Below are positions 17,152 through 62,398 of a stretch of 64,000 bases of DNA, piece by piece (the first letter of the stretch is position 1; every line of letters starts with the position of its first letter). Made by a program: the position numbers and the translations under genes. The notes beneath the pieces are model-generated. The model saw only the letters and a list, made by a program, of their open reading frames with translations. It had not been told where the DNA came from and searched no databases. Origin of the DNA: a virus. The stretch covers positions 38,285 to 102,284 of IMG/VR virus record IMGVR_UViG_3300002131_000176; one strand, written 5' to 3'.

Positions 17152-17729
17152 CACCTATAATCGTTGACAATTTATTGCCAGTTGGTTATGCAGATGATAT
17201 AGAACGAGACCTAAAACAAACTGGGTTCAATTGGTATTATATCGAGGATGTAACTAACCCAAAGTATGGAAACAATTCTGGGTTTGTGCATCCTGCATAT
17301 GATTATGGTAAAAGCCCTAGTGAGTGGTTTCCTTATATTAAACCACTAGTGTATTCTATAGAACAATCTCTTGGTAGAAAAATAGAAGAATTATATAGAA
17401 TACGCGTTGGGTTGTTGTTGCCATCACTAGATGATAAACAGTACAATACCCCACATGTGGATTTTTTGTGGCCACACTGCACCGCTTGCTACTACGTTTC
17501 AAACAGCGACGGTGACACAGTAGTATTTAATCAGCATCTATCAGATGCAGGTACTGACATAAATAACGAGTCGCTAAGGCTTTATGCAGAAGATACAAAT
17601 TTTACAGTAAAAACTAGTGTAGCACCTGTGAAAAATAGGCTGGTGATATTTGATGGTTTTAATTTTCATGCTAGTACAAAACCAAAACAACATGACACAA
17701 GACTGGTAATAACAGTAAACTTTAAATGA
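17148..17729 (+). CDS. 2OG-Fe(II) dioxygenase
   Basis: 193 residues with the double-stranded beta-helix layout: iron ligands H103 and D105 (TPHVDF), distal H174 (FNFHAST) and R185 for 2-oxoglutarate (TRLVITVNF). All required residues are present, so it is probably active. Related short oxygenases are frequent in cyanophage and other T4-like genomes; targets there are mostly unknown. It is coupled by 4-base overlaps to the Fe-S protein upstream and the halogenase downstream, so a joint substrate is likely. Confidence 0.8.
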   Translation: MTPIIVDNLLPVGYADDIERDLKQTGFNWYYIEDVTNPKYGNNSGFVHPAYDYGKSPSEWFPYIKPLVYSIEQSLGRKIEELYRIRVGLLLPSLDDKQYNTPHVDFLWPHCTACYYVSNSDGDTVVFNQHLSDAGTDINNESLRLYAEDTNFTVKTSVAPVKNRLVIFDGFNFHASTKPKQHDTRLVITVNFK

Positions 17730-19336
17730 GCAAACACATTAAAAAAATCCTAATCGTTGGTGGCGGAAGCTCAGGTTGGATGACTGCAGCAGCGCTAATC
17801 AAACAGGTGCCTGACATTGAAGTTAGTTTGATTGAATCACCGTCGACTCCTACAATCGGTGTAGGAGAAAGCACTATTGGGCAAATTAACACCTTTTTTA
17901 CCTACCTAGGTCTTAAAGATGAAGACTGGATGAGTTACTGCAACGCAACTTATAAGACTTCTATTAAGTTTATAAATTTTAGGGAAAACCCAACAGACAC
18001 ACCGCACGTGTTCCACTATCCGTTTGGTCGGTACAATACAGCGAATAAACCAAGGATGATAATGGAATGGTTTATCGCGAAAGCGAAAGACCCATCATTA
18101 GACCCATACACTTTTGCTGAATTTTACCACGATTCAATCGCAATGATTGATAGCAACAAGTTAACAAAAAATGAAGATGGCAGCGTTAAGGGGTTTGATT
18201 TCTCTAATGATACTGCATACCATATGGATGCAACTCTCTTTGGCCAATACCTAAGAGACCGCATATGTAAACCAAATGGATTAACACATATATTAGACGA
18301 TGTTGTTGATATTAGAAAAAACGACATGGGAGAAATAGATCACCTAACAACTAAAAACGGTGATACTCTTACTGCCGATCTCTTTATAGATTGCACGGGG
18401 TTCAAGTCTTTGTTGTTAGAAGAAACAATGCAAGTGCCATTCGTGTCTTTTTCTGACACGTTGCTCAACGACCGAGCTATCGCAACAGTAATTCCTTATG
18501 CAGATAAGGAACACGAAATGGAATCAGTTACTAGTTGTACTGCAATTGAGTCAGGTTGGGTTTGGAATATTCCATTGTGGAATAGAATAGGCACTGGATA
18601 TGTTTACTCATCGCAATTTGCAACAGAGGAAGAAGCAGAAGAACAGTTTCGAAATCATTTAAAATCAGCTAACATGCGTTTACCGCATCAAATTAAAAGA
18701 GCCGAAGAAGCTGAAGTTAGACATATAAAAATTAAACATGGTGTACACAAGCGCAGCTGGGAAAAGAACGTAGTTGGCATAGGATTATCAATGGGGTTCA
18801 TAGAGCCGCTTGAATCTACTGGCCTGATGTTGACACATGAAGGCATCATCAAACTAATACACACCTTAGGAGCTCGTAATGGCACTGTGACGCAGTTTGA
18901 TATTGATTGCTATAACTTTGCATTCTACGAGCAAATTGTGAATTTTAAAGATTTTATTTCACTGCACTATGCATTGAGCATGCGTGATGACACTCCTTAT
19001 TGGAAAAAAGTGACGTCAATGACTTACTCAGTTGGTATGAATGAACGCATTGCAAATGCAGTTGGAAACACGTATGCATCTGTAGCTTCAAATATACACA
19101 AAGAAAAGTCATTTGCATCAGAAGGTGGAGGCATTCTATACATTACTGCAGGTATGGGGCATAATTGCATTAACCAACCTCATGAAGAGTATTTAAGACT
19201 ACTGTACCAAGAGCCTGAAGAACTTACATCTAAGGTTTTTAAAGAGTGGCAAGAACACAGAAAGGTGCTTAAAAAACATGTGGATACATTACCTAGCCAT
19301 TATGAGTTCTTGCGTGACACCATATACAATAAATAA
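17726..19336 (+). CDS. Flavin-dependent tryptophan-type halogenase
   Basis: 536 residues, the usual length for the PrnA/RebH class. FAD-binding GGGSSG near residue 12, then GVGEST. The lysine equivalent to PrnA K79 is K77 (ATYKTSIKF). The WxWxIP halogenase motif is at 278-283 (GWVWNIP) and the catalytic Glu is E360 in GFIEPLEST. All hallmark residues are intact, arguing for real halogenation or a closely related reaction. It needs a flavin reductase, which I do not see here. Annotated halogenases occur in some cyanophage genomes, but the substrate is not known. Confidence 0.85.
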   Translation: MSKHIKKILIVGGGSSGWMTAAALIKQVPDIEVSLIESPSTPTIGVGESTIGQINTFFTYLGLKDEDWMSYCNATYKTSIKFINFRENPTDTPHVFHYPFGRYNTANKPRMIMEWFIAKAKDPSLDPYTFAEFYHDSIAMIDSNKLTKNEDGSVKGFDFSNDTAYHMDATLFGQYLRDRICKPNGLTHILDDVVDIRKNDMGEIDHLTTKNGDTLTADLFIDCTGFKSLLLEETMQVPFVSFSDTLLNDRAIATVIPYADKEHEMESVTSCTAIESGWVWNIPLWNRIGTGYVYSSQFATEEEAEEQFRNHLKSANMRLPHQIKRAEEAEVRHIKIKHGVHKRSWEKNVVGIGLSMGFIEPLESTGLMLTHEGIIKLIHTLGARNGTVTQFDIDCYNFAFYEQIVNFKDFISLHYALSMRDDTPYWKKVTSMTYSVGMNERIANAVGNTYASVASNIHKEKSFASEGGGILYITAGMGHNCINQPHEEYLRLLYQEPEELTSKVFKEWQEHRKVLKKHVDTLPSHYEFLRDTIYNK

Positions 19337-44131: not shown

Positions 44132-46639
44132 ATGTCTTTTTACACGTCAGTTTTTCGTTATGGTAACAATATCCTATTCCGTGGATATGATGACCAAGGC
44201 CGTCGCTACCAGCGTAAAGAACCATTCCAACCCACGTACTATGTGCCCTCACAGAAAGACGTAGGTTGGCGTGGGCTTGATGGCGCCGTGATTGGTCCTG
44301 TCAAGATGGATAGCATGCGTGAAGGTAAAGAATGGATGGAGAAATACAAAGATGTTTCTGGTTTTAACATCTATGGTAACCCTAACCAAATCCATCAATT
44401 TATATCAGAGAAATTTCCAGGCGATATCAAGTTTGACCGTGACCGTATTAACGTAACCACAATCGATATTGAAACTGCTTATGACGATGGCTTTCCCGAG
44501 CCAAGTAAAGCAGAGAACGAAGTGTTGGCTATTACTATCAAAAATAATATTGATGGGATGTATTATGTCTGGGGTTACGGTGATTACGACACAGAAAAGG
44601 CTTTAATTAAACCTGTAAGGTACATCAAGTGCTCATCTGAGGCCGAGTTGTTTAAGTCGTTCCTTACACACTGGCAAGCACCGCAGTTCTCACCTGATGT
44701 GATTACTGGTTGGAATGTACGATTCTTCGATATGCCTTATTTGGTCAATCGCGTCACTAAAATATTAGGCGAAGATTGGGCCAAGAAATTCTCGCCATGG
44801 GGTATGCTGAATTACCGCCAGGTCACTCGGTTAAACAGAGTTAATGATACCTATAATATCGAAGGCATACAAACCTTAGACTATCTAGAGCTCTTTCAGA
44901 AGTTTGGTTACTCCTACGGTAATCAAGAGTCCTACAAACTAAATCACATCGCCTATGTTGTACTTGGTGATACTAAGCTTTCGTTCGAGGAATCAGGTTC
45001 TCTTAAAAATCTCTACAAGGATGATTACCAAAAGTACATTGACTATAACATGAAGGACGTGGAACTTGTAGATCGGCTTGAGGATAAGATGGGTCTTATT
45101 ACCCTTGCCATGACCATGGCGTATAAGGGTGGTGTGAATTACCAGGACACATTTGGTGTTACGGCGATTTGGGAATCAATTATCTACCGTAAACTTAAGT
45201 CTCAGAAAACAATGCCACCGATTGGCAATGATACCAATCATAAGACTGCATTTGCGGGTGGTTATGTTAAAGATCCTAAAGTTGGACTTCACAATTGGGT
45301 TGTATCTTTTGACTTGAATTCGCTTTATCCAAATATCATTGTGCAGAATAACATGTCGCCAGAGACCGTGACTGATAAGTTTGTTAAGTCTGGCGTAGAT
45401 TATTATCTTGATGGCAATAAAGCAGATGTTGATGAATATGCTGCAGCTGCAAATGGTTCCACATATCGTAAAGATATTGATGGCGTAGTTCCTGGTATTA
45501 TTATAGATTACTATGACGAACGCTCTGCTACTAAAAAGGCTATGCTTGCATCGCAGAGCGCGTATGAAAAAAACAAGACGTTTGAACTTGAGAAAGAAAT
45601 CAACCGCCTTGAGAATACTCAAATGGCCCTTAAGATTCTGCTTAACTCACTTTATGGTGCGCTTGGTAATGCTTACTTCAGATACTTTGATATTCGTCTA
45701 GCCGAAGGTGTAACACTTACTGGCCAGTTAGCAATTCAATGGGCTGAAAAAGCAATGAATGAATCCATGAATAAAATCCTTAAAACTAAAAATAAGGATT
45801 ATGTTATTGCGATTGATACTGATTCGTTGTATGTAAACTTTGGCCCGCTGGTCGATACTATGAAATGGAAACCTGATGATGGCACAGATGCAAAGGTGGC
45901 ATTCTTAGATAAGGTATGTAGTCAACACTTTGAGCCTGTGCTAGCACGAGCTTATGAAGAGTTATTCAAGAACATGAACGGCCATAAAAATCGAATGGTC
46001 ATGAAACGCGAAGTGATCGCTGACCGTGGTATCTGGACTGCTAAGAAGCGCTATATATTAAATGTACATAATAGCGAAGGTGTGCAATACGCAGAACCAA
46101 AGCTTAAGATTATGGGCATTGAAGCTATTAAATCATCGACGCCAGCAGTAGTGCGTGATAAGTTTAAAGAAATATTTAAAATTATTATCAAAGGCAGTGA
46201 AGAAGAAACCAGGCAGTTTATTAATAAGTTCAGAGAAGAGTTTAAAAAACTGCCTCCAGAAGCGGTTGCCTTTCCTCGTGGCGTAAGTAATATCACTGAG
46301 TGGAAAAATAATCAGACCATTTATAAGAAAGGCACTCCCATCCACGTCCGCGGATCGCTTATGTATAATAAAGCAGTAAAGGATCTCAGCCTTGATTCAA
46401 AGTATGAGCTTATTCGTAATGGTGATAAAATAAAGTTTGCGTATCTACGGATGCCAAACCGTATCAAAGAAAATGTAATTTCATTTCCAGACCATTTGCC
46501 TAATGAGCTTGGTTTGCATCGTTATATTAACTATGACTTACAGTTTAATAAAACGTTCATCGATCCGCTTATGTTCATTCTTGATGCGGTAAAGTGGTCG
46601 CTTGAAGATAAGCAGACACTTGAAGACTTTTTTGCTTAA
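44132..46639 (+). CDS. gp43: DNA polymerase gp43 (family B)
   Basis: 835 residues (T4 898). Proofreading exonuclease Exo I with D112 and E114 (TIDIETAY), the same positions as in T4. Polymerase motif A DLNSLYP near 394, motif B KILLNSLYGALGN near 500, motif C DTDS near 562. Single uninterrupted gene with no intein or split. A TAAGGAG ribosome site and own early promoter precede it. Confidence 0.97.
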   Translation: MSFYTSVFRYGNNILFRGYDDQGRRYQRKEPFQPTYYVPSQKDVGWRGLDGAVIGPVKMDSMREGKEWMEKYKDVSGFNIYGNPNQIHQFISEKFPGDIKFDRDRINVTTIDIETAYDDGFPEPSKAENEVLAITIKNNIDGMYYVWGYGDYDTEKALIKPVRYIKCSSEAELFKSFLTHWQAPQFSPDVITGWNVRFFDMPYLVNRVTKILGEDWAKKFSPWGMLNYRQVTRLNRVNDTYNIEGIQTLDYLELFQKFGYSYGNQESYKLNHIAYVVLGDTKLSFEESGSLKNLYKDDYQKYIDYNMKDVELVDRLEDKMGLITLAMTMAYKGGVNYQDTFGVTAIWESIIYRKLKSQKTMPPIGNDTNHKTAFAGGYVKDPKVGLHNWVVSFDLNSLYPNIIVQNNMSPETVTDKFVKSGVDYYLDGNKADVDEYAAAANGSTYRKDIDGVVPGIIIDYYDERSATKKAMLASQSAYEKNKTFELEKEINRLENTQMALKILLNSLYGALGNAYFRYFDIRLAEGVTLTGQLAIQWAEKAMNESMNKILKTKNKDYVIAIDTDSLYVNFGPLVDTMKWKPDDGTDAKVAFLDKVCSQHFEPVLARAYEELFKNMNGHKNRMVMKREVIADRGIWTAKKRYILNVHNSEGVQYAEPKLKIMGIEAIKSSTPAVVRDKFKEIFKIIIKGSEEETRQFINKFREEFKKLPPEAVAFPRGVSNITEWKNNQTIYKKGTPIHVRGSLMYNKAVKDLSLDSKYELIRNGDKIKFAYLRMPNRIKENVISFPDHLPNELGLHRYINYDLQFNKTFIDPLMFILDAVKWSLEDKQTLEDFFA

Positions 46640-48495: not shown

Positions 48496-48843
48496 ATGCG
48501 TGAATCAATTAAAGTCTTACAAGAGTGTGCAGAAATCCAAGATCGAAAGTCTCGTGATTATCAAAATGAAAAGTCACGAATCCGTCAAGCAGACTACTAC
48601 CCTCGTGGTGTGATGTCTATTATGGAACTAATCAATACTAAAACAATCCGTTTGTGGTCAGTACTAGAAGCCATGGAAAACGATCCTAACTACGAACCTA
48701 ACTTCGAATCAGTCGAAGACTCACTTAAAGATCTGATCAACTATGCTTCTTTTGCCGTGTCATATTCACGCGGTAAGATCGACGGTCAAGATCCATCGCG
48801 TGATTTTTTAAACCGCAAAACAAAAGAATACCCGGTATTGTAA
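48496..48843 (+). CDS. Nmad1-like (DUF1599) nucleotide-modification-associated protein
   Basis: 115 residues. QDRKSRDYQNE near residue 15 and YPRGVMSIMELINTKTIRLWS near 35, then SVEDSLKDLINYASFAV near 72, match the DUF1599/Nmad1 pattern. This domain was linked by comparative genomics to phage base-modification loci; its biochemistry is unknown, with a nucleotide-processing helical fold suspected. It begins the putative modification cluster and has its own promoter and TTAGGAG ribosome site. Confidence 0.6.
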   Translation: MRESIKVLQECAEIQDRKSRDYQNEKSRIRQADYYPRGVMSIMELINTKTIRLWSVLEAMENDPNYEPNFESVEDSLKDLINYASFAVSYSRGKIDGQDPSRDFLNRKTKEYPVL

Positions 48844-49650
48844 ATGCACTTTAAAATTGCAATCATTGGCCATGGATTTGTTGGTAAAGCTGTTGACTAT
48901 GGATTTACCAATCCAAAAGTAATAAAGCAAACTATTGATCCAAAGTATAACAATAATGTTAACCATATCGATATTAGCACCGACTTAATATTTGTGTGTG
49001 TTCCTACACCTATGGGTGATTTTAGTATTATCCGTAATACGATGGAGCAGTTAAAGCTACGTGGTTTTTTAAATCATAGTATGGTAGTAATTAAATCTAC
49101 AGTACCGCCAGATGTGTTAAAGGAATTTGCAACAAGCAGTGTGGTGTATAACCCTGAGTTTTTAACTGAAAAGTCGGCTTCTGAACAATTTATTAATCCA
49201 CCGTTTCACATTTTTGGTGGAGATACCCGGGCTTCAGACACGCTTGAAAGATATTATCAGCAATATAGCCTATGCAATATTTGTCCTTCGTATAAATTGA
49301 CTATTGAAGAAGCTTCAGTTGTAAAATATACTATTAATTCTTTCCTTGCAACCAAGGTAGCTTTCTTTAATCAACTTTATAGTATGTGCGCTGATAATGG
49401 TTATAATTTTAATCAAATTATTCAAGCTGTAGGTGCTGATTCTCGTATTGGACACAGCCACACCAAAGTGCCGGGGTTTGATGGAAAACTAGGGTTTGGC
49501 GGAGCGTGTTTTCCTAAAGATACCCAAGCTTTTGTTAACTTTAGTGATAAATTATCAGTATTAGAAGCTGTTATAAGTGCCAATAATACGATGCGTGCTG
49601 AATACGAGTTAGATGACCGTGAAAAAGAACAAAAAATTATGTACAAATAA
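48844..49650 (+). CDS. UDP-glucose/GDP-mannose dehydrogenase family, short form
   Basis: 268 residues. Rossmann start AIIGHGFVGKAV (8-17), VCVPTPMGDF near 52, KSTVPPD near 84, K161 and N165 (VVKYTINSFLATK), and the catalytic Cys C222 in GFGGACFPKD. The usual C-terminal UDP-binding domain (about 100-150 residues) is missing, as in some phage versions. The catalytic set is intact, so it may oxidise UDP-glucose or a related sugar nucleotide. With the epimerase at 54509 it would give UDP-galacturonate. Confidence 0.75.
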   Translation: MHFKIAIIGHGFVGKAVDYGFTNPKVIKQTIDPKYNNNVNHIDISTDLIFVCVPTPMGDFSIIRNTMEQLKLRGFLNHSMVVIKSTVPPDVLKEFATSSVVYNPEFLTEKSASEQFINPPFHIFGGDTRASDTLERYYQQYSLCNICPSYKLTIEEASVVKYTINSFLATKVAFFNQLYSMCADNGYNFNQIIQAVGADSRIGHSHTKVPGFDGKLGFGGACFPKDTQAFVNFSDKLSVLEAVISANNTMRAEYELDDREKEQKIMYK

Positions 49651-49668
49651 CAGATTCTGTTGTATAAT
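49640..49668 (+). promoter_or_regulatory. Early-type promoter before gp42
   Basis: TGTACA (49640-49645), 17 bases, TATAAT (49663-49668). Confidence 0.75.
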
Positions 49669-49691
49669 GTTAAATCAACTCAGGAGTAATA

Positions 49692-50339
49692 ATGTTAAAG
49701 GTATCTGATATACGCACTCTTTTTGTCAAAGCTTTGGCAGATGAGCGTTTTACCACAGATCGTAATGGATCAAAAACCATTGAGATCCTTGGTGCATCAT
49801 TCGTAGCTGATGAGCCAGCTATCTTTGGCGAACCAAGCTATGAATATATCCAGCGTGAATTTCGATGGTACAATTCAATGTCTAGCAACGTCAATGATAT
49901 TGAAGGTACTGTACCTGCTGCCTGGAAAATGACTGGAAACAAGCACGGCGAGATTAATTCAAACTATGGCTTATTAGTTTACTCAGATAAATTTTATAAT
50001 CAATTTAAAAGAGTCGTGGAAGAATTACAAACTAATCCGGATTCTCGCCGTGCGTCTATGATCTACACTCGTCCATCGATTTGGAATGAGTACAATGAGA
50101 ATGGCAAAAACGACTTCATCTGTACCAATTCAGTCACATACTACATTCGTGATAGTAAGTTGCATTGTGTAGTTCAGATGCGTTCCAACGATGTCGTCTA
50201 TGGCTATAAGAATGATTATGCCTGGCAGCTGCATCTTTTACACCAAGTAGCAAATACTTTAAATGTTGAAACCGGTACTATTACATGGCAAGTTCAGAAT
50301 TTGCACGTGTACGAACGCCATTTTAATCTTGTAAGCTAA
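49692..50339 (+). CDS. gp42: dCMP hydroxymethylase gp42
   Basis: 215 residues (T4 246), thymidylate-synthase fold. SKTIEILGASFVADEPAIFG near 27 and EYIQREFRWY near 51 align closely with T4 gp42. Phosphate-binding R119/R120, nucleophile C144 (DFICTNSVTY). D175 (YKNDYAWQ) is the Asp that replaces the thymidylate-synthase Asn and gives dCMP rather than dUMP specificity in T4. So 5-hydroxymethyl-dCMP is the expected product. It ends about 30 residues earlier than T4. The stop overlaps the next start. Confidence 0.88.
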   Translation: MLKVSDIRTLFVKALADERFTTDRNGSKTIEILGASFVADEPAIFGEPSYEYIQREFRWYNSMSSNVNDIEGTVPAAWKMTGNKHGEINSNYGLLVYSDKFYNQFKRVVEELQTNPDSRRASMIYTRPSIWNEYNENGKNDFICTNSVTYYIRDSKLHCVVQMRSNDVVYGYKNDYAWQLHLLHQVANTLNVETGTITWQVQNLHVYERHFNLVS

Positions 50340-51295
50340 TGAACGTAATCACTAATCCAATATCAAACATTCCAAAGAATGAGAAGTCGCATGTGCTTGG
50401 TTGGTCTTTGTTATGGAAAGATCAACTCAAAGCATCTATAGATCATAAATGCACTCCGTACATTAAGAATGCTGATGTAGTATATATTGAGCATGGCGCT
50501 AATTTTGGTGGCACCCTTAATTTGTTTGGTGGTGCAAATAAGGAAGTATTTGATAAAATCAACCTTGTAATGTCTTGCACTAACATCGTGTCTTTAGATT
50601 GGGATATGCCAGATTACGGCGCTATGCTAAAGAAACGGCTCGATGCTCCTACTACATATAAAGGCATTACTGAGAAATGGTGCGACCTTGTATCAAAACG
50701 GATACAAAGTATTTCCTCACTCAAACAGAAAGACCTGTTGACTGATGGTGTCACAATCGGTGATTCGCATACCATAGCGTTTAGCGGCGTAGGCGATCGG
50801 GTGTATCGCGCTGATGGTAAAACCCTTTTTGGAACTTTAAAAAAAGGATTACGTCAGGATTTTGGCGAACTTGTTGGTAAAGCTACCTTTTGTATGGGGT
50901 CAATTGATATTAGGCACCACATCTTACGCTATCCTGATTTTTCTTTAAAAGATACTATTAAGGACTATGTAAGCCAGGCCAAAGAATTAGCTGATGATGT
51001 ATGGTTTGCTGCTCCAGTTCCAGTAGAGTTTGAAGGAAGACGCATTCCTAAATCTGGATTTTATAAGAAGACTCCTTTTTTTGGTTCTTGGAAAGACCGA
51101 CAAGAGCTTACCAATAACTTTATTGATATGCTATATACTGAGTCAAAAGGTAAAGTTGTAATGCCACCAAAAGAATGGTACACTATGGATCCTGAGAAAT
51201 ACGCAAATACGTTTATGGAACATGGTTCGTCTTTTCACATTGCACCGCCATTTCATTTTAGAAAAAACTGGGGAGTAACAGCACTTGCCGCATAA
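50339..51295 (+). CDS. SGNH-hydrolase-like protein in the modification cluster
   Basis: 318 residues, no signal peptide. TIGDSHT at 139-145 resembles SGNH block I, with Ser143 as candidate nucleophile. GSIDIRHH at 187-194 could be block III, and HGSSFHIAP near 295-302 could carry the C-terminal His. Overall similarity to characterised SGNH enzymes is weak. It is coupled to gp42 by a one-base overlap and to the PLP-like gene by 11 bases, so a role in processing the hydroxymethyl base or its adduct is inferred from context only. Confidence 0.4.
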   Translation: MNVITNPISNIPKNEKSHVLGWSLLWKDQLKASIDHKCTPYIKNADVVYIEHGANFGGTLNLFGGANKEVFDKINLVMSCTNIVSLDWDMPDYGAMLKKRLDAPTTYKGITEKWCDLVSKRIQSISSLKQKDLLTDGVTIGDSHTIAFSGVGDRVYRADGKTLFGTLKKGLRQDFGELVGKATFCMGSIDIRHHILRYPDFSLKDTIKDYVSQAKELADDVWFAAPVPVEFEGRRIPKSGFYKKTPFFGSWKDRQELTNNFIDMLYTESKGKVVMPPKEWYTMDPEKYANTFMEHGSSFHIAPPFHFRKNWGVTALAA

Positions 51296-52181
51296 TAACC
51301 ATGTAATTGACGGGGTCAACCGAGACATAAATCCGTTTTATGGCGATCCAAAAGAATATTATTTAGAGATGGCAAAGGATTGGGAAGATCCTTATGGAAT
51401 GCCAGAAATTGTGACACATGACGGAATCAGGGTGGTGCGGGATGATTTTCTTGTAGGATCAAAAGTACGTGGTGGAGATTGTTTGATATCATCGCTGCCT
51501 GAGCATATCGATACCATTGTGTATGTTCAGCCTAGGACTGGTTTAGCAGGTGTATCAATCCTTGATGTAGCAAAGCGCCATAATAAGAAGGTGCGACTGT
51601 TCATGCCTTCTTCTCAGAAGATTTCAGTGCATCAAGCCTGTTGTATCGAACGTGGGGCTGATGTATCTTTTCATCGTATTGCTGCAATGCCTAATCTAAA
51701 TTTGATTGCAAAGAAATGGGCTAGTGAACATTCGAATGCATTCTTTGTTCCTCTTGGATTAAAGCATGAACGTGTGACAGCAGGTATTGTAAAGTCTGCT
51801 TCACGCATACCAGCGCCTGATGTCGTGTATACTGCCACGTCCACGGGCGTGCTCACCCGCGCGCTTCAGATTGCTTGGCCAGATGCTGAATTTGTATCTG
51901 TCTGTGTATCACGTAATATGAAAGCGGGTGAACTTGGTAAAGCTAAGCCCATTTCTGAAAACCTTGCATTTACTTCAAGCGAGAAAAAAGAGAACTTACC
52001 ACCATTTCCTAACATAGATACCTACGACGGAAAGGTATGGAAATTTATACCTAAGAATAGTGATAAAGATATTCTATTTTGGAACGTAGGCCGTGAGCCA
52101 GAGCTTATTAACAAATCGATTATTGATCAAACAGACTCATATCGCGATTGGGAAAAGAATGTCAAACAAATGGCTGAATGA
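51285..52181 (+). CDS. PLP-dependent fold-type II-like enzyme
   Basis: 298 residues from a TTG start supported by GGGGAG (51270-51275) 9 bases upstream; the next in-frame ATG (51369) would cut the N-terminus. RDDFLVGSKVRGG (K60) resembles the PLP-lysine block of ACC deaminase/D-cysteine desulfhydrase, and TATSTGVLTRAL near 183 the phosphate-binding loop. VQPRTGLAGVSILDVAKRHNKKVRLFMP near 81 fits the small-domain substrate loop. PLP enzymes of other classes are used by Salmonella ViI- and M6-type phages to build hypermodified bases. The amino substrate here is unknown. Confidence 0.55.
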   Translation: MPHNNHVIDGVNRDINPFYGDPKEYYLEMAKDWEDPYGMPEIVTHDGIRVVRDDFLVGSKVRGGDCLISSLPEHIDTIVYVQPRTGLAGVSILDVAKRHNKKVRLFMPSSQKISVHQACCIERGADVSFHRIAAMPNLNLIAKKWASEHSNAFFVPLGLKHERVTAGIVKSASRIPAPDVVYTATSTGVLTRALQIAWPDAEFVSVCVSRNMKAGELGKAKPISENLAFTSSEKKENLPPFPNIDTYDGKVWKFIPKNSDKDILFWNVGREPELINKSIIDQTDSYRDWEKNVKQMAE

Positions 52182-53214
52182 AGAAGCTCTGGATGTATTA
52201 GTTAACTACTATTACCCACGCGCAAAATGGTTACAAGATAATTGCAACTGGGGCGATATATCTTATCTAGGATCAGAAGCTGATAAAGCAGTCAATGATC
52301 CATTAATGCAATATATTGACATTTACGATTGTTACACACGCGATGCGGCTGGTTTTTCGAATGTATTACAGGACTTAAAGTTTCGTGTTAACACACCCAA
52401 GAGACACCATCAAATTAAAAACTCAGCTCTCGGCCAAAAACACTGGGATCTTGTCGATAGTTATATTACTGAAAGTTGGGATACCAAGACTTGGTTCTAT
52501 ACTTACTTTGTTCATCGTATTACAGGTTCTGGCGCATCGTTCACGCGTGACCACGGCTATCGCAATAATGTAGTTCAACATTTTGGTAAGCTGCGTGATA
52601 TCAAAGATATGAAAGCTTTCATGATTGAGAAAAAGCAATCTGGAAAGCCTTTATTTACTTCGATTGGCAACCAGCCACCGTCACCCCGTAAAGGCGTTAC
52701 GTGTCTTGATTTTATGGTAAACGAACTTGAACCTTTAGTTGATCGTTTTATGGAATGGTTGCCAAAGGAAGGCCGTAAAAGGACTCATAAAGAAGTAGTT
52801 GATTATTTGAATGAGTATAACATAGAACAAGGTCACAAGCGATTTAACTTTGTGTATGCTGCATTCTCATATGATATGGGTGACTACCACAAAGATTTAG
52901 TTGATGATATGTCGCATGGCTACTTTGGTAATAACGCGATACGATGCATGAAGCTCTTATCAAACGGGTATACTACGGACGAATTCATGGATCTTCTCTG
53001 TGAGCGCATGGGAGGCGCACCACGTGATAACGAAGACGTAATGTGTGACTTTGTTCGCTTTGGCCAAAACTATGTACCACGCAGCGATAACACCTTTGAT
53101 CATGTGCCATCCGATATAAGTAATAAATCTGGATGGGAGTCTGGGTGGGAACAAAGACAAGGCCAACCGAATATTGCAAAAAACGATTTACAACTTGATG
53201 CTTTCATGGTATAA
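52159..53214 (+). CDS. Alpha-GPT-pyrophosphorylase/amino-acid:DNA-transferase-like protein
   Basis: 351 residues from the ATG at 52159, preceded by GGGAAAAG; a longer start would lie inside the previous gene. The block TWFYTYFVHRITGSGASF (111-128), then DHGYRNN and FTSIGNQPPSPRKGV (166-180), is what I recognise from the alpha-glutamyl/putrescinyl-thymine pyrophosphorylase superfamily (now amino-acid:DNA transferases). Those enzymes displace an activated hydroxymethyl group on the base with an amine. Here the base would be hmC. The match is from memory of motifs, so moderate confidence. Confidence 0.5.
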   Translation: MSNKWLNEEALDVLVNYYYPRAKWLQDNCNWGDISYLGSEADKAVNDPLMQYIDIYDCYTRDAAGFSNVLQDLKFRVNTPKRHHQIKNSALGQKHWDLVDSYITESWDTKTWFYTYFVHRITGSGASFTRDHGYRNNVVQHFGKLRDIKDMKAFMIEKKQSGKPLFTSIGNQPPSPRKGVTCLDFMVNELEPLVDRFMEWLPKEGRKRTHKEVVDYLNEYNIEQGHKRFNFVYAAFSYDMGDYHKDLVDDMSHGYFGNNAIRCMKLLSNGYTTDEFMDLLCERMGGAPRDNEDVMCDFVRFGQNYVPRSDNTFDHVPSDISNKSGWESGWEQRQGQPNIAKNDLQLDAFMV

Positions 53215-53215
53215 T
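53187..53215 (+). promoter_or_regulatory. Early-type promoter
   Basis: TTTACA (53187-53192), 17 bases, TGG-TATAAT (53210-53215), overlapping the end of the previous gene. Confidence 0.7.
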
Positions 53216-53226
53216 AGACGTATATT

Positions 53227-53859
53227 ATGAGCAATGATTTAAAAGACTTAATTTCTACTCCATTAGATCTACCATTAATTGAGCCTACAAGCTGGGATGA
53301 TTGGTGGGATTTGTGGAACAAGGAATCTGCATATACGCCTAAAGTAATAAAAACACATAACAATGTGAGTTCTCCATGGAAAGGCCTTGAGATATGGTCT
53401 AGGCCTGGTATAAATTCAAGGAGTATAGTGACATATGATGCGAAAAATGTCAATCGGCCTGACTTATTTCCATCGATTTTTGATAACCTAGATAAATTTC
53501 CTATTAAAATCGATATAGTTAGAGTTGTTTCAAATTTTGTAACAGTTATACCACACAGTGATGCACTTCCAGATAAAAAAATATTAAGTGTGCGATCTAT
53601 GCTTTATAACACTAATATTGAACCAACGTTTAATTACAGATTGAATGGCCAAAAAGTATACCAAACACTTCCTAAAGATACAAACACATGGATGTATTGG
53701 GATCATAAAACTAAACATGCTGCTGATTTTCATCATGGGTATACTAAACATTTAATAACTATATATGGCCGTCAAAAGGCTAATTATAATGAGTATATTG
53801 AAAAAAGTGCTAACATGTATAAGGACCATGCTATTTTTAACACAAAAACAATGGAATAA
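53227..53859 (+). CDS. 2OG-Fe(II) oxygenase-like protein (paralogue A)
   Basis: 210 residues. Candidate iron ligands H110 and D112 (VIPHSDAL) and a distal His at 164 (TKHAADFHH); no convincing Arg follows at the usual place, though K174 or R182 could serve. The N-terminus MSNDLKDLISTPLDLP and the end AxxYxDHAI match the protein at 61658, so they are paralogues. The neighbourhood suggests oxidation of a nucleotide, base or sugar; target unknown. Confidence 0.5.
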   Translation: MSNDLKDLISTPLDLPLIEPTSWDDWWDLWNKESAYTPKVIKTHNNVSSPWKGLEIWSRPGINSRSIVTYDAKNVNRPDLFPSIFDNLDKFPIKIDIVRVVSNFVTVIPHSDALPDKKILSVRSMLYNTNIEPTFNYRLNGQKVYQTLPKDTNTWMYWDHKTKHAADFHHGYTKHLITIYGRQKANYNEYIEKSANMYKDHAIFNTKTME

Positions 53860-53864
53860 AAATT

Positions 53865-54062
53865 ATGACAGAACCCAAGAAACGACTTAACGACGTTACG
53901 CCTGAGGAATGGAACAAAGCTCACGATAAATGGGCTAATGAATCTACGCTAGTTCACTCAGAACATTACTACGACTCTGACCGCAACAAACCATTAAATG
54001 ATGAAAAAAATGATACAAACTCCGACTGGGACAACTGGAAACCATCAAAAACATTTGTCTAA
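53865..54062 (+). CDS. Small hydrophilic protein, hypothetical
   Basis: 65 residues, highly charged and Trp-containing (EEWNKAHDKWANE; SDWDNWKP), with no hydrophobic segment. It starts 5 bases after the previous stop, and its end overlaps the dCMP deaminase frame. No family recognised. Confidence 0.45.
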   Translation: MTEPKKRLNDVTPEEWNKAHDKWANESTLVHSEHYYDSDRNKPLNDEKNDTNSDWDNWKPSKTFV

Positions 54063-54507
54063 CGAGCATAACAGCTGGGACCATGTATTTTTACGACTTG
54101 CTAAAGAAGTAGCATCATGGTCTAAAGACCCCTCAACCAAGGTAGGCGCAATTGCTGTCGGCCCTAAACGCAATGTTTTGGCTCAAGGCTATAACGGTTT
54201 TCCTAGAGGTATTTTTGATTATGCCGAAAGATATGATGATAAACCTACTAAGTACATGTATGTCGTCCATGCAGAGATGAATGTCATTTATAATGCTACG
54301 TATAATGGTGTTTCACTTGATGGTGCATCACTTTATATTCATGGATTGCCGCCGTGCTCTGAGTGCGCCAAAGGCATTATACAAGTTGGCATTAAAGAAA
54401 TTATAACTGAAACCGCTGGCATTCCTAAAAAATGGCAAGATTCATGGGAATTTTCTAAGAGTATGTTTGATGAAGTAGGTATCACTGTTCGAACTATCGA
54501 AAGATAA
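53998..54507 (+). CDS. dCMP deaminase
   Basis: Up to 169 residues. Zinc site: HAEMN near residue 91 and PPCSECAKG near 116; SKDPSTKVGAIAVGP near 43 and GYNGFPRGI near 64 are family hallmarks. It converts dCMP to dUMP for ThyX. The start is uncertain: ATG 53998 overlaps the previous gene by 65 bases, while a TTG at 54055 (residue 20) would fit the usual N-terminus better but has no good ribosome site. It competes with gp42 for dCMP. Confidence 0.85.
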   Translation: MMKKMIQTPTGTTGNHQKHLSNEHNSWDHVFLRLAKEVASWSKDPSTKVGAIAVGPKRNVLAQGYNGFPRGIFDYAERYDDKPTKYMYVVHAEMNVIYNATYNGVSLDGASLYIHGLPPCSECAKGIIQVGIKEIITETAGIPKKWQDSWEFSKSMFDEVGITVRTIER

Positions 54508-54508
54508 A

Positions 54509-55465
54509 ATGGCAAATATTTTAATAACCGGCTGTGCAGGCTTTATTGGATATCACACAGCAATAAAGCTCCACGGTGAAGGCCACCGCGTGACTGGCAT
54601 TGATAATTTTAATAATTACTATGATGCTAATTTAAAGATTGCTCGCAGCTCTTTATTAGAAAAAAATGGTATCATGGTTATTAGAGGTGATATTACTAAT
54701 ACGGTTGATGTTGAATATGCAGTTACTTCAGCTGCACCTGATGTCGTGGTGCACTTGGCTGCGTATGCCGGTGTTCGACATTCGTTAAATAATCCACAGC
54801 TGTATATCGATAATAATATTACTGCCACTAATAATTTAATTCAGATTTGTGAGCAACGTGGAGTGGATAGAGTAATTTATGCTTCCACCTCTGCTGTCAT
54901 GGTAGGTAATGAACTGCCTTGGAATGAAACCGAAAAATTAGGTTATCAGCTAAATGCATACGCATACTCTAAGGCTGCTAATGAATCTCAGTTCATGTCA
55001 AGCAAATTGCCAGTTGCCATTGGCCTTCGATTCTTTACTGTCTACGGTCCATGGGGTCGCCCAGACATGGCGCTGTTTAGCTTTACTAAGTCAATCATAG
55101 ATGGTACACCAATTAAATTATTTAATTATGGTGATATGATTCGTGACTTTACTTACATTGACGATATTATCCAAGGCATTAATATTGTTATCAGTCACGC
55201 AAATAATACACCAGTCCCGCTAAAAACAGTGTATAATATAGGTTATGGCAAACAAGTTCAACTCATGGACTTTGTGAGTGAAATCGAAAAGAACGTTGGT
55301 AAGGAGGCAATTAAAGAATTGGTTGAAAAACACCCGGCTGATGCACAAACTACCTGGTCAGACACTACCAAACTTCAAGCGCTTGGTTATAAACCAACAA
55401 CATCAGTAGAAGTTGGTGTTGCTAAATTTGTTGAGTGGTACAAAGAGTACTACAATATCGTATAA
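54509..55465 (+). CDS. NAD-dependent UDP-uronate 4-epimerase-like (SDR)
   Basis: 318 residues. NAD motif GCAGFIG near residue 8, DNFNNYYD near 31, S/T near 125 (YASTSAVM), catalytic Tyr and Lys in YAYSKAANE near 151, and RFFTVYGPWGRPDMALF near 172, typical of UDP-glucuronate 4-epimerases. With the short Ugd it can make UDP-galacturonate, a sugar donor for DNA or host-surface glycosylation. No glycosyltransferase is visible in the window. Confidence 0.8.
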   Translation: MANILITGCAGFIGYHTAIKLHGEGHRVTGIDNFNNYYDANLKIARSSLLEKNGIMVIRGDITNTVDVEYAVTSAAPDVVVHLAAYAGVRHSLNNPQLYIDNNITATNNLIQICEQRGVDRVIYASTSAVMVGNELPWNETEKLGYQLNAYAYSKAANESQFMSSKLPVAIGLRFFTVYGPWGRPDMALFSFTKSIIDGTPIKLFNYGDMIRDFTYIDDIIQGINIVISHANNTPVPLKTVYNIGYGKQVQLMDFVSEIEKNVGKEAIKELVEKHPADAQTTWSDTTKLQALGYKPTTSVEVGVAKFVEWYKEYYNIV

Positions 55466-58361: not shown

Positions 58362-58519
58362 TGATTGATGTAATTGATTATAACGAAGATTCAGATGAAG
58401 GTCCTGCAACGATGCGGGTATTGCTTGATGCTAAGGCCAAAAAGAATCTAATTGAACTTGGGTTTATTGCATCACTTAAAAGATCCATAGAAGAATATGA
58501 AGAAAGTCTAAAGAAATGA
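58361..58519 (+). CDS. Very small acidic protein before thyX, hypothetical
   Basis: 52 residues (MIDVIDYNEDSDEGPATM..., ending EEYEESLKK). The start overlaps the previous stop (TAATG) and the stop overlaps thyX (ATGA), so it sits in an unbroken coupled series, which is the main evidence that it is real. Function unknown. Confidence 0.45.
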   Translation: MIDVIDYNEDSDEGPATMRVLLDAKAKKNLIELGFIASLKRSIEEYEESLKK

Positions 58520-59205
58520 AAGCAACATTAATAAGTTTTTCCAAACCTACGAGGCAATTATATGATCAAGGGTTATATGACGCGCAGGACCTTATTGCAT
58601 ACTGCGCCAGAGTTAGCAATCCAGCCAACCAGTTTAATACAGCGACTGCTGAAAAACTGCTCGGATATCTGGCCAAGCACAAACACTGGTCCCCATTTGA
58701 AATGGTCTCAGCCTGTATCGAAGTTGAAACAACCAGAGACATCGGCCGTCAGTTACTACGACACCGCTCGTTCTCCTTTCAAGAGTTCTCACAAAGGTAC
58801 GCAGATCCAACTAAAGATTTGGAAATGGTACTTCGCGAACCACGCCTTCAGGACGAGAAAAATAGACAGAATAGTGTAGAGCTTGATATGACCACTGATG
58901 ATGGTCGGCGACTTGCTTGGATGTGGGAAGCACAACAGATTAAGGTCCGTGATGCTGCTCGTGAAGCATACAGTTGGGCTATTGATAATGGTATTGCCAA
59001 AGAACAGGCCAGAGCCGTACTACCAGAAGGTCTCATGATGTCCAGGCTACAGGTCAATGGTACCATTAGGTCATGGATCCACTACATCGAACTACGGTCA
59101 GGCAATGGTACCCAAAAGGAACACATCCAGATCGCTCAGGCGTGCGCTCAAGCGATTACTCAAGCCTTCCCTATGATATCATCATATGTAGAAAGTAGTA
59201 CTTAA
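58516..59205 (+). CDS. thyX: Flavin-dependent thymidylate synthase ThyX
   Basis: 229 residues. The ThyX motif RHRxxSxxxxSxR is present as RHRSFSFQEFSQR near 78-90. Other conserved parts are KHKHWSPFEM near 53 and ARAVLPEGLMM near 162. It makes dTMP from dUMP using FAD and folate. Common in cyanophage-like T4 phages in place of T4 td. It takes dUMP from the dCMP deaminase encoded 4 kb upstream. Confidence 0.95.
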   Translation: MKATLISFSKPTRQLYDQGLYDAQDLIAYCARVSNPANQFNTATAEKLLGYLAKHKHWSPFEMVSACIEVETTRDIGRQLLRHRSFSFQEFSQRYADPTKDLEMVLREPRLQDEKNRQNSVELDMTTDDGRRLAWMWEAQQIKVRDAAREAYSWAIDNGIAKEQARAVLPEGLMMSRLQVNGTIRSWIHYIELRSGNGTQKEHIQIAQACAQAITQAFPMISSYVESST

Positions 59206-59663: not shown

Positions 59664-60287
59664 ATGCTAGAAACAATATGTGAAGTAATGGTCGACGCGT
59701 ATAAGCGCAATTGGATCACCAGCCGTGATGGTAATGTAAGTATCCGTCACCATGATCGCGATCATTTTTATATCACGCCGAGCGGTGTTCGTAAACAGAC
59801 ACTACAGCCAGATCAATTTAAAAAGATTAAGATTGTAAACAGTTTTGAATACCGTCAGTTAGAGTACACAGACATCAGCGCCAAACTAACACCTAGTGGA
59901 GAGATTCCTCTACACTTTGGTTTACAAAGAGCAATGGGACAACATGCTGGAGATGTCCGTGTTGTAGTCCATGTGCATCCCACATATTGTATTGCTGCTA
60001 TGCATGCTGGTATTGATCTAAGCACAATCAGTGATGCCTTTCCAGAACTGAATCGGTATACTCGAGTTGCTCCTAATGTTGGAGATGTACCTCCTATCAG
60101 TCAAGAACTTGCTGATCAGTGTCATGAAAATCTGCAACTAGACAAAAATGGTAATATTGCTTATGACATTGTGGGTATTAAAGGTCATGGAGTTGTTGCT
60201 ATTGATACATCGCCGTGGCGTGCATACGAACATATCGAACGCTTAGAACATATTTGTAAGATTGTGCTTGCAAGCGGAAAATATTAA
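59664..60287 (+). CDS. Class II aldolase/adducin-family protein
   Basis: 207 residues. Zinc site HVHPTYCIAAMHAG near 103 and a distal His in GIKGHGVVAI near 173; N-terminal SRDGNVSIR near 20 and ITPSGVRK near 37 are family motifs. Members are sugar-phosphate aldolases (fuculose- or ribulose-phosphate type) or dehydratases such as MtnB. The C-terminus is near the usual length. With the DadA-like gene 5 bases after it, it forms a metabolic pair. Substrate unknown. Confidence 0.8.
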   Translation: MLETICEVMVDAYKRNWITSRDGNVSIRHHDRDHFYITPSGVRKQTLQPDQFKKIKIVNSFEYRQLEYTDISAKLTPSGEIPLHFGLQRAMGQHAGDVRVVVHVHPTYCIAAMHAGIDLSTISDAFPELNRYTRVAPNVGDVPPISQELADQCHENLQLDKNGNIAYDIVGIKGHGVVAIDTSPWRAYEHIERLEHICKIVLASGKY

Positions 60288-60292
60288 AAATA

Positions 60293-61477
60293 ATGACTAA
60301 AAAAACAGTTGCGGTAGTAGGTGCAGGGATATCTGGTGTATGCGCAGCGTATTACCTTGCTCGAGCAGGATATGCGGTAACAGTGTATGACGCAGAGCGC
60401 TATCCCGCCATGCGAACTAGTTTTGCCAATGGCGGACAAGTGAGTGTCAGTAACAGCGAGGTGTGGAATACCTGGAGTAATGTATTTAAGGGTATTAAGT
60501 GGATGTTTCGCAAGGATGCTCCTTTGCTTATCAAACCCAGTTTTGAATGGGCTCGTATCAAGTGGATAAGCAAGTTTTTGTGGACAACTATGCGAGGTCG
60601 TGCAGATGCAAACACTGCGGAGACTATTCGCATGGGACTAGAAGCCCGAGCATTGTACAAAGACATCATTGCAGAAGAGAGTCTAGAGTTCGATCAATCA
60701 AACAGTGGCATCCTACACTTCTATAAGAATCCAGAATATCTACAAAACGCACACAATGTAAAAGAATTGTATAACGCAAATGGGTGTTCTTGGGATATGC
60801 TAGGCGAAATGCAAACCAAATCAATGGATCCTGCACTAACACAAATTAGTGGCATTGTAGGTGGTGCATGGACTGGTGAAGACTGGACTGGTGACATACA
60901 CAAGTTCTGTACTGAATTATGTAAGGTGTTAGAGTCAAAGTATGGCGTGGAATTTAAGTTTGGAATGGAAGTAAATGGTAAGCTATTAGGATATGATGCT
61001 GTAGTTATTGCTAACGGCGTAGGTAGTACGCGATTAGCAAATACTATTGGTGATACTTTAGATGTTTATCCAGTTAAGGGATATAGTATTACTATCAACG
61101 TCAGTGATGATAATATGAAGTATGTACCAAAGGTTAGTCTATTAGATGACGAGGCAAAGATTGTTACCAGCACACTAGGAAACCGATTCCGTGTTGCAGG
61201 TACAGCCGAACTTGCCGGAGAAGACTACGATATCAGACGTGATCGCATTGAACCCTTGTTGAATTGGGTACACACTAACTTTCCCAATATAAATACCAGT
61301 GACTACACACAATGGGCATGTTTGCGTCCTATGGCACCAGACATGATGCCTATTGTCAAACAAAGTAAGGTTGATAGCAGAGTATTTTACCATACTGGAC
61401 ACGGACACTTGGGTTGGACACTAAGCCCGGCAACTGCTAAAAAATTAACAAATGCGGTGTTAAATGCGCATTTTTAG
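60293..61477 (+). CDS. D-amino-acid dehydrogenase-like FAD oxidoreductase (DadA family)
   Basis: 394 residues. FAD dinucleotide fold VVGAGISGVCAAYYLARAGYAVTVYD (7-33), FANGGQVS near 45, VYPVKGYSITI near 260, and the C-terminal TGHGHLGWTLSPATAKKL, all close to bacterial DadA (432 residues). DadA deaminates D-amino acids to keto acids. FAD enzymes of the same broad class act as amine lyases on amino-acid-modified bases in some phages, so a link with the transferase at 52159 is possible. Unusual for a T4-like phage. Confidence 0.8.
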   Translation: MTKKTVAVVGAGISGVCAAYYLARAGYAVTVYDAERYPAMRTSFANGGQVSVSNSEVWNTWSNVFKGIKWMFRKDAPLLIKPSFEWARIKWISKFLWTTMRGRADANTAETIRMGLEARALYKDIIAEESLEFDQSNSGILHFYKNPEYLQNAHNVKELYNANGCSWDMLGEMQTKSMDPALTQISGIVGGAWTGEDWTGDIHKFCTELCKVLESKYGVEFKFGMEVNGKLLGYDAVVIANGVGSTRLANTIGDTLDVYPVKGYSITINVSDDNMKYVPKVSLLDDEAKIVTSTLGNRFRVAGTAELAGEDYDIRRDRIEPLLNWVHTNFPNINTSDYTQWACLRPMAPDMMPIVKQSKVDSRVFYHTGHGHLGWTLSPATAKKLTNAVLNAHF

Positions 61478-61657: not shown

Positions 61658-62398
61658 ATGTCTAGTGATATTTTAGATATTTTATACACGCCTATCGATA
61701 CTCCTCCTGTTCCTGATTATAATAGGCTCGAGCTAGATAAATGGTGCGCTAAAAATGCACCTAATCAGCACGTTGTAAATAGGCGAGATGGTTCGAAAGA
61801 AGCGCGTATTCAAGATACTGGAATGCATTTTTCCAAGGTATATCCGTGGGACATAGTTTATGCAAGAAACAACTATGCGTGGCTTGACGATTTCGATATT
61901 AAGTTTTCACAATTATCAACTTACTTTTGTTCAATTTTTTCATTGGAACCAGAAGTCATTTCTTCTATAGTATTCCTTCCTGTAAAAACAAATTATACAG
62001 GAACAACGTATTGGCATGCAGATCCTGATGAAATTGGTTTAAGACTGTATATTGAAAATAATGAAACTGATGGGGACTTTTTATTAATAAAACCAACAGT
62101 AGAAAAATATCAGTCACGGTCAGAATGGGGATTCATTCCTCCAGTAGATGGCATTTCACCTAAGATACAAAATGTGATGCACTCAGCAAAAGTAACAAAA
62201 CCGCAACAAGCTTTTTATATTAATAATGTGAGAGCTGTACACGCAGTAAATGTTAACGTTCCTAATCTTCGTAGGTTGGCTGTCTTAGTTCTTACAAAAA
62301 GAACCGCGGCAACTACTACAGAAGAAACAAAAAAGCTGATATTAAGTTCAGCTGAAAAATATCCAGATCATGCAATTAAATGGTCGCAACAGAGGTGA
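61658..62398 (+). CDS. 2OG-Fe(II) oxygenase-like protein (paralogue B)
   Basis: 246 residues. H120 and D122 (TYWHADPDE), distal H195 (VRAVHAVN) and R206 (NLRRLAV) give a full 2OG-Fe(II) site. N-terminus MSSDILDILYTPIDTP and C-terminus AEKYPDHAI match the protein at 53227. This copy has the clearer active site. Target unknown. Confidence 0.65.
   Translation: MSSDILDILYTPIDTPPVPDYNRLELDKWCAKNAPNQHVVNRRDGSKEARIQDTGMHFSKVYPWDIVYARNNYAWLDDFDIKFSQLSTYFCSIFSLEPEVISSIVFLPVKTNYTGTTYWHADPDEIGLRLYIENNETDGDFLLIKPTVEKYQSRSEWGFIPPVDGISPKIQNVMHSAKVTKPQQAFYINNVRAVHAVNVNVPNLRRLAVLVLTKRTAATTTEETKKLILSSAEKYPDHAIKWSQQR

Follow-up and report, generated by a model that had tools for sequence, protein, structure and literature searches.

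A candidate kinase-independent pathway for hydroxymethylcytosine hypermodification in a T4-like marine phage

Introduction

How might a phage attach an amino-acid-type group to hydroxymethylcytosine (hmC) in its DNA while encoding no recognisable DNA kinase? The question is raised by a locus in IMG/VR record IMGVR_UViG_3300002131_000176, a 102,284-base virus record, possibly a fragment, of a T4-like marine phage with T4-like replication genes. The window that we analysed is 64,000 nucleotides long and covers positions 38285-102284 of that record. Between the DNA polymerase gene gp43 (44132-46639) and uvsX (55478) it holds a run of co-directional, mostly overlapping genes. At its core stand a gp42-type dCMP hydroxymethylase, a protein with an SGNH catalytic domain, a protein resembling fold-type-II pyridoxal phosphate (PLP) enzymes and an all-helical protein resembling amino acid:DNA transferases (Table 1).

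To our knowledge, amino-acid-type hypermodification has been characterised on hydroxymethyluracil (hmU) only, and the known decorations of cytosine are methyl, glycosyl and carbamoyl groups. A literature search of incomplete coverage returned no published description of this cluster. Here we show that hypermodification of hmC is well supported by the genomic context and that the group added is probably amino-acid-derived; the whole pathway, kinase-independent and built on hmC, is the reading that we favour with moderate confidence. If it is true, a kinase-free hmC module with transferase-like and PLP-like genes is a new branch of DNA chemistry. The module, carried by a widespread group of T4-related marine phages, is present in hundreds of viral contigs. 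It would bear on the resistance of phage DNA to restriction and CRISPR and on the sequencing of marine viromes, and would be a source of new hmC-specific enzymes.

Results

The gp42 homologue is closest to T4 gp42. Nucleophile C144 and the dCMP-specifying D175, both pointed out in the initial annotation, are invariant in 28 homologues that share 45-68% identity with the window protein. In thymidylate synthases the residue matching D175 is Asn, and the corresponding Asp of T4 (Cys148/Asp179) marks dCMP over dUMP according to Graves et al. 1992, as cited in PMC8670742. Like many of its homologues the window protein is about 20 residues shorter at its C-terminus than T4 gp42. The window also encodes the flavin-dependent thymidylate synthase ThyX, found in 24 of the 38 complete gp43-uvsX intervals described below, and therefore gp42 is not needed for dTMP. 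As judged from these residues, a dCMP-type hydroxymethylase and the formation of hmC are strongly supported.

All open reading frames named in the initial annotation are present and run in one direction. Within the core, gp42 and the SGNH gene overlap by 1 nt, the SGNH and PLP-like genes by 11 nt and the PLP-like and transferase-like genes by 23 nt; gp42 is translationally coupled to these three genes, at the gp43-uvsX position where T4 has 42-b-gt. Scans of viral contigs identified at least 588 relatives of the SGNH protein and 582 of the PLP-like protein, counts that are bounded by the search patterns used. The contigs form 120 non-redundant groups, with a complete gp43-to-uvsX span in 38. 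Each contig was fetched via one of three partner genes, which is present by selection, and the linkage of the other partners and of gp42 is the informative part. The genes for gp42, SGNH and transferase-like protein occur together in all 38 intervals, and the four-gene core including the PLP-like gene in 35. Since this core is kept across dozens of divergent contigs, a chance grouping is excluded. Gene order varies by clade, being either gp42-SGNH-PLP-transferase or gp42-transferase-PLP-SGNH, and because it is shuffled the co-occurrence is not mere shared ancestry of a single arrangement.

The SGNH protein, predicted as such in the initial annotation, was modelled with AlphaFold2 from 33 input sequences with a pLDDT of 88.7. 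In a Foldseek search of the PDB its best matches were without exception SGNH/GDSL esterases (TM approximately 0.3-0.5, E 1e-3 to 0.1, probability near 1), by which the predicted SGNH fold is supported as a remote relationship. The conserved blocks are GDSH (S143), G-x-I-D-x-R-H-H (G187-I189-D190-R192-H193-H194) and S-x-H (S298/H300). Residues 1-130 constitute a separate N-domain. A 54-sequence profile of this domain aligned by hhalign to the profile of the T4 beta-glucosyltransferase (beta-GT) family over 45 columns with a score of 38.8 (P 4e-5, probability 69.5%), whereas the best score among 60 column-shuffled controls was 20.8. In the alignment the invariant wedge N61-L62-F63-G64-G65 lies over beta-GT N70-F-F72-G-G and D89 over D100; we take N70 and F72 to act at the flipped base and D100 to be the catalytic base of T4 beta-GT. 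One SGNH homologue, L090, matches the beta-GT PHROG at 8e-4, and a direct sequence comparison of the window protein with T4 beta-GT gave no match. The profile alignment thus suggests that the N-domain, including the N-x-F-G-G loop, is remotely related to T4 beta-glucosyltransferase. The UDP-glucose-binding C-terminal domain of family GT63 is absent from the window protein, the C-terminal part of which has the SGNH fold. A complete GT-B glycosyltransferase was rejected by the fold search, the likeness to beta-GT being limited to the N-domain.

The transferase-like protein has the invariant residues R61, H119-R120, G123-S124 and E292-D293-x-x-C296. Its model (pLDDT 82) matches A0A6J5L8T5, annotated as 'amino acid:DNA transferase domain-containing', in the BFVD set searched by Foldseek (E 3e-13, TM 0.75), and its next structural matches are 5-hmdU-kinase helical-domain proteins (0.01-0.04). 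No Pfam or PHROG family was found for it, its divergent members or the neighbouring family c120. The latter, encoded on other contigs, is a homologue by hhalign (P 7e-6) and has the C-terminal E-D-x-x-C in common with it. Comparison of the family profile with single ViI ADDT or HMUDK_hel sequences, or with the C-terminus of the SGNH homologue of phage 44RR described below, was not significant, and PDB sequence searches with the SGNH and transferase-like families gave chance matches only. A PF18724 match in related record G003 turned out to be clamp loader gp44.

For the PLP-like protein the Pfam PALP match lies below the curated cut-off, while homologues score 8e-7 (L138) and, in a methylase fusion of Erythrobacter phage ZS04, 3.5e-10, which is above it. 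The putative Schiff-base lysine K60, in GSKVRGG, is invariant in 27 homologues. The protein, called PLP fold-II-like in the initial annotation, is treated here as a putative remote PALP member.

Relatives connect two of these proteins to DNA modification. The SGNH homologue of Aeromonas phage 44RR, which also encodes td and gp42, carries a fused C-terminal domain with an HMUDK_hel match (E 4e-4 to 4e-3). In L332 and L336, contigs binned with Planctomycetes and Rhodobacteraceae metagenome-assembled genomes (MAGs), an HMUDK_hel helical protein is encoded near gp42 by a separate gene adjoining that for SGNH (44-45 bits, cut-off 25) and aligns to the 44RR C-terminus with 29% identity; the L332 pair lies between gp42 and uvsX, with uvsX and gp41 downstream. 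In ZS04 (L005 2326-4764) the PLP-like homologue forms one protein with an N6/N4 DNA methylase. The SGNH and PLP-like proteins are thereby independently tied to DNA modification. These fusions and adjacencies, as well as the beta-GT-related N-domain, are new beyond the initial annotation. Across phages the constant element is gp42 with SGNH, and helical partners and donor genes are exchangeable.

Some further arrangements were seen in this survey. A myo-inositol-1-phosphate synthase gene is located beside SGNH relatives on three MAG-binned phage contigs (L332 1593-6545; L336 4866-10117; L324, gp42-SGNH-7655-8935), possibly for an inositol-based modification of hmC, and L332 and L336 also carry a C5 DNA methylase. 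Caulobacter phage Cr30 has consecutive genes for inositol-1-phosphate synthase (gp121), a TET-associated-glycosyltransferase-like protein (gp122) and ADDT (gp123). In Microcystis phage Mae-JY30 (L004 4378-6696) the PLP-like homologue adjoins two ParB/sulfiredoxin genes; this arrangement and that of ZS04 perhaps represent another PLP-dependent DNA modification.

Neither a kinase nor a T4-type glucosyltransferase had been seen in the initial annotation, and wider searches agree. When the 102-kb record and a 142-kb relative were scanned for P-loop motifs, these belonged to gp17, gp46, gp44, gp41 and chance matches, and no P-loop DNA kinase was identified. HMUDK_hel was not found in the phage's own record or in seven related records (G001-G007), some of which may be fragments. 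Direct comparison of the record and the 142-kb relative with T4 alpha- and beta-GT identified no homologues, and no TET-associated glycosyltransferase was found in the own or related genomes.

Discussion

In the pathway that we favour, gp42 would make hm-dCMP and the phage polymerase would incorporate hmC. The subsequent steps would be post-replicative. The N-domain of the SGNH protein, presumably beta-GT-derived, would flip hmC out and the SGNH active site would act on the exposed hydroxymethyl, most likely forming an ester-type activated group, which is the job of the kinase in hmU phages. Next, the transferase-like helical protein would join a group of amino-acid type to the methylene carbon, and the PLP-like protein would make or tailor that group. 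It is because the helical protein here has the SGNH gene as its constant companion, in place of a kinase, that we propose the SGNH protein to act on the hydroxyl of flipped hmC. We infer hmC in virion DNA, base flipping, the order of steps, the amino-acid product and the ester activation, the last being the least certain: activation of hmC by acyl transfer, creating a leaving group, is a tentative suggestion that we would sooner doubt than accept. Equally speculative is an origin in which the beta-GT of a T4-like ancestor was rebuilt, its flipping N-domain kept and its sugar-donor domain exchanged for an SGNH acyl-transfer domain, with a carboxylate leaving rather than pyrophosphate. This would yield an amino-acid-modified cytosine without a kinase, by a route that is common across the ocean and that in other phages works with partners that can be exchanged (amino acid, inositol or sugar).

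Several observations weigh against this pathway. The block-III Asn of the SGNH oxyanion hole is not conserved, position 188 being S or N, and the reaction could differ. PF18724 and PF18723 do not recognise the transferase-like family, as seen in the phage's own genome and for 30 family members compared with PF18724, and its profile aligned with PF18724-type sequences over the E-[DT]-x-x-C motif only (P 0.011). What had been annotated as amino-acid:DNA-transferase-like hence stands as a fold match and conserved partner, but outside that sequence family. In the PLP-like protein the canonical S-G-N substrate loop is replaced by R-T-G-L (PRTGLAG); its substrate is therefore probably unusual, and to judge from the sequence the protein could be inactive as a PLP enzyme. 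Homologues of the gp1 dNMP kinase and gp56 dCTPase were not found in the record or the 142-kb relative, so that hm-dCDP formation and dCTP removal would rest on host or unrecognised enzymes.

One alternative is that hmC receives a polyol, a sugar or an acyl group, with the SGNH protein as the actual transferase and a helical protein that does no more than present the DNA; we regard it as conceivable and rather unlikely. In its favour, SGNH homologues that lack a PLP partner stand beside genes for UDP-galactopyranose mutase (Aes508), a sodium:solute symporter (44RR) and inositol synthase (L324, L332, L336), and the reading fits the apparent kinship of the N-domain to a DNA glucosyltransferase and the UDP-glucose dehydrogenase and epimerase in the window. 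However, the constant partners in the window's clade are the PLP-like and transferase-like genes, with the dehydrogenase in 11 of the 38 gp43-uvsX intervals and the epimerase in 8. No inositol synthase was observed in this clade, and the C-terminal half of the protein is an SGNH domain and no nucleotide-sugar-binding one. The same frequencies rule out the UDP-sugar genes as core and count against the uronate-derived group considered in the initial annotation.

A route like that of ViI and M6, with phosphorylation of hmC by a kinase that is unrecognised or comes from the host, displacement of pyrophosphate by the transferase-like protein and an editing or deacylating SGNH protein, appears improbable. 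Transferase-like proteins and HMUDK_hel are indeed part of that pathway in hmU phages (PMC6449724), and one divergent relative, L328, has a P-loop kinase near the cluster. Against it stand the outcome of the P-loop scan and the fact that the constant partner of HMUDK_hel and transferase-like genes is the SGNH gene and not a kinase. That gp42 is an ordinary thymidylate synthase, the other genes serving host metabolism or the cell surface, we consider very improbable. Its Pfam label reads thymidylate synthase, and pelagimyophage group C was described with two thymidylate synthases and a dCMP deaminase, such genes being labelled a second thymidylate synthase (PMC7029224), but the invariant D175, the closeness to T4 gp42, the presence of ThyX and partner genes fused to or adjoining DNA-modification domains all speak for the hydroxymethylase.

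With T4 hmC glucosylation the locus shares the catalytic Cys/Asp of gp42, the interval gp43-42-x-uvsX-41 and, in the next gene, an N-domain apparently related to beta-GT with the N-x-F-G-G loop. It differs in having an SGNH domain in place of the sugar-donor domain, in its added PLP-like and transferase-like genes and in lacking a T4-type alpha- or beta-GT. In the hmU pathway a DNA kinase phosphorylates hmU in DNA, and an amine-bearing group is transferred and then tailored (PMC6449724). Thymidine hypermodification in ViI, M6, SP10 and PhiW-14 also starts from a hydroxymethylpyrimidine and has an all-helical transferase-like protein, a PLP-type tailoring enzyme and, here, SGNH relatives with HMUDK_hel; in our locus the base would be hmC and not hmU, no kinase is recognisable, the transferase-like protein falls outside PF18724 and the putative fold-II PLP enzyme is divergent. 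The proposal in the initial annotation that this phage joins the T4 and ViI/M6 strategies consequently holds in that the system would work like a blend, but it passes all the tests of neither, having no kinase, no GT donor domain and a transferase-like clade outside PF18724. T4-like phages RB69, with arabinosyl-hmC (PMC6024577), and Thanatos, with pentose-C (PMC12838424), likewise decorate gp42-type cytosine with a non-glucose group, by sugar-nucleotide synthesis and glycosyltransferases, whereas our cluster has sugar genes as accessories and yielded no glycosyltransferase of that kind. The 5-hmC carbamoyltransferase phages known from MetaGPA (PMC8670742) similarly pair a thymidylate-synthase-family gene with an enzyme on the hmC hydroxyl. 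The enzyme family is different, and in our phage a carbamoyltransferase N-domain gene lies far off beside GT8 genes.

Accessory and neighbouring genes

Table 1. Genes of the cluster and its surroundings, with positions in the window.
Feature	Position	Strand	Evidence
Small protein related to Nmad1/DUF1599	48496..48843	+	PF07659 E 0.053 (sub-threshold)
UDP-glucose/GDP-mannose dehydrogenase, two-domain, GFGGACFPKD catalytic motif; accessory	48844..49650	+	PF00984 3e-20; phrog_9148 7e-43
gp42-type dCMP hydroxymethylase; core	49692..50339	+	PF00303 3e-22; phmmer vs T4 gp42 1e-71
Beta-GT-like N-domain + SGNH catalytic domain protein; core	50339..51295	+	AlphaFold2 model; Foldseek; hhalign; phrog_13881 3e-95
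PLP fold-type-II-like enzyme, TTG start; core in most	51285..52181	+	PALP (PF00291) 5e-4, below curated cut-off; phrog_7093 3e-34
Amino-acid:DNA-transferase-like all-helical protein; core	52159..53214	+	Model pLDDT 82; Foldseek
210-aa protein, not conserved	53227..53859	+	No Pfam/PHROG match
dCMP deaminase; nucleotide-pool gene of the gp43-uvsX interval	53998..54507	+	PF00383 4e-20; phrog_174 9e-43
NAD-dependent nucleotide-sugar epimerase; accessory	54509..55465	+	PF01370 3e-46; phrog_540 3e-66
ThyX flavin-dependent thymidylate synthase	58516..59205	+	PF02511 5e-39
Class II aldolase; possible accessory	59664..60287	+	PF00596 6e-28
FAD-dependent DAO-family oxidoreductase (D-amino-acid-dehydrogenase-like), directly 3' of the aldolase; possible accessory	60293..61477	+	PF01266 1.5e-58

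The UDP-sugar dehydrogenase and epimerase named in the initial annotation were confirmed by their Pfam matches. The Nmad1-like gene likewise held up: its own product is sub-threshold, yet PF07659 was matched in 16 of 16 homologues (best 3e-4), and in other phages a dGTP_diPhyd_N protein (family c20; PF18909 1e-27) stands in its place beside gp42. The product is likely a deoxynucleoside triphosphate (dNTP) pool pyrophosphatase or accessory. The dCMP deaminase gene is present in 34 of the 38 intervals. The 2-oxoglutarate-like oxygenase of the initial annotation, the 210-aa protein, was not borne out, being found solely in a near-identical contig. Its N-terminus (L-x-D-[IL]-[IL]-x-[ST]-T-P-[IL]-D) and possible H-x-D motifs resemble those of the 61658-62398 protein, perhaps as a small family; the latter occurs in none of the other fetched loci. 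The aldolase gene is located within the cluster in several relatives, with the order SGNH-PALP-aldolase-AADT in L020 and L028, and the DAO-family oxidoreductase in one other fetched locus only, L029.

In 13 loci the dCMP deaminase and SGNH genes are separated by one for a small UDG-superfamily-like protein (L122 7652-8029 and relatives; PF03167 0.0098). Upstream of gp42 in L108 and relatives, some clusters have KdsA-like (PF00793), CMP-Kdo-type cytidylyltransferase-like (PF02348) and cupin genes, which are likely surface-sugar genes. A carbamoyltransferase was rejected as core, since only three of six marine records compared have it, and in a different region: in record G000 (C1:31,000-34,300, outside the window; L161 12032-15285, - strand) carbamoyltransferase N-domain, GT8 and GCSHT (SGNH-like) proteins are encoded among tail genes. 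Finally, in the structural region of the window (17148-19336) a gene for a 2OG-Fe(II) oxygenase precedes one for a protein of the tryptophan-halogenase family (PF04820 1e-112).

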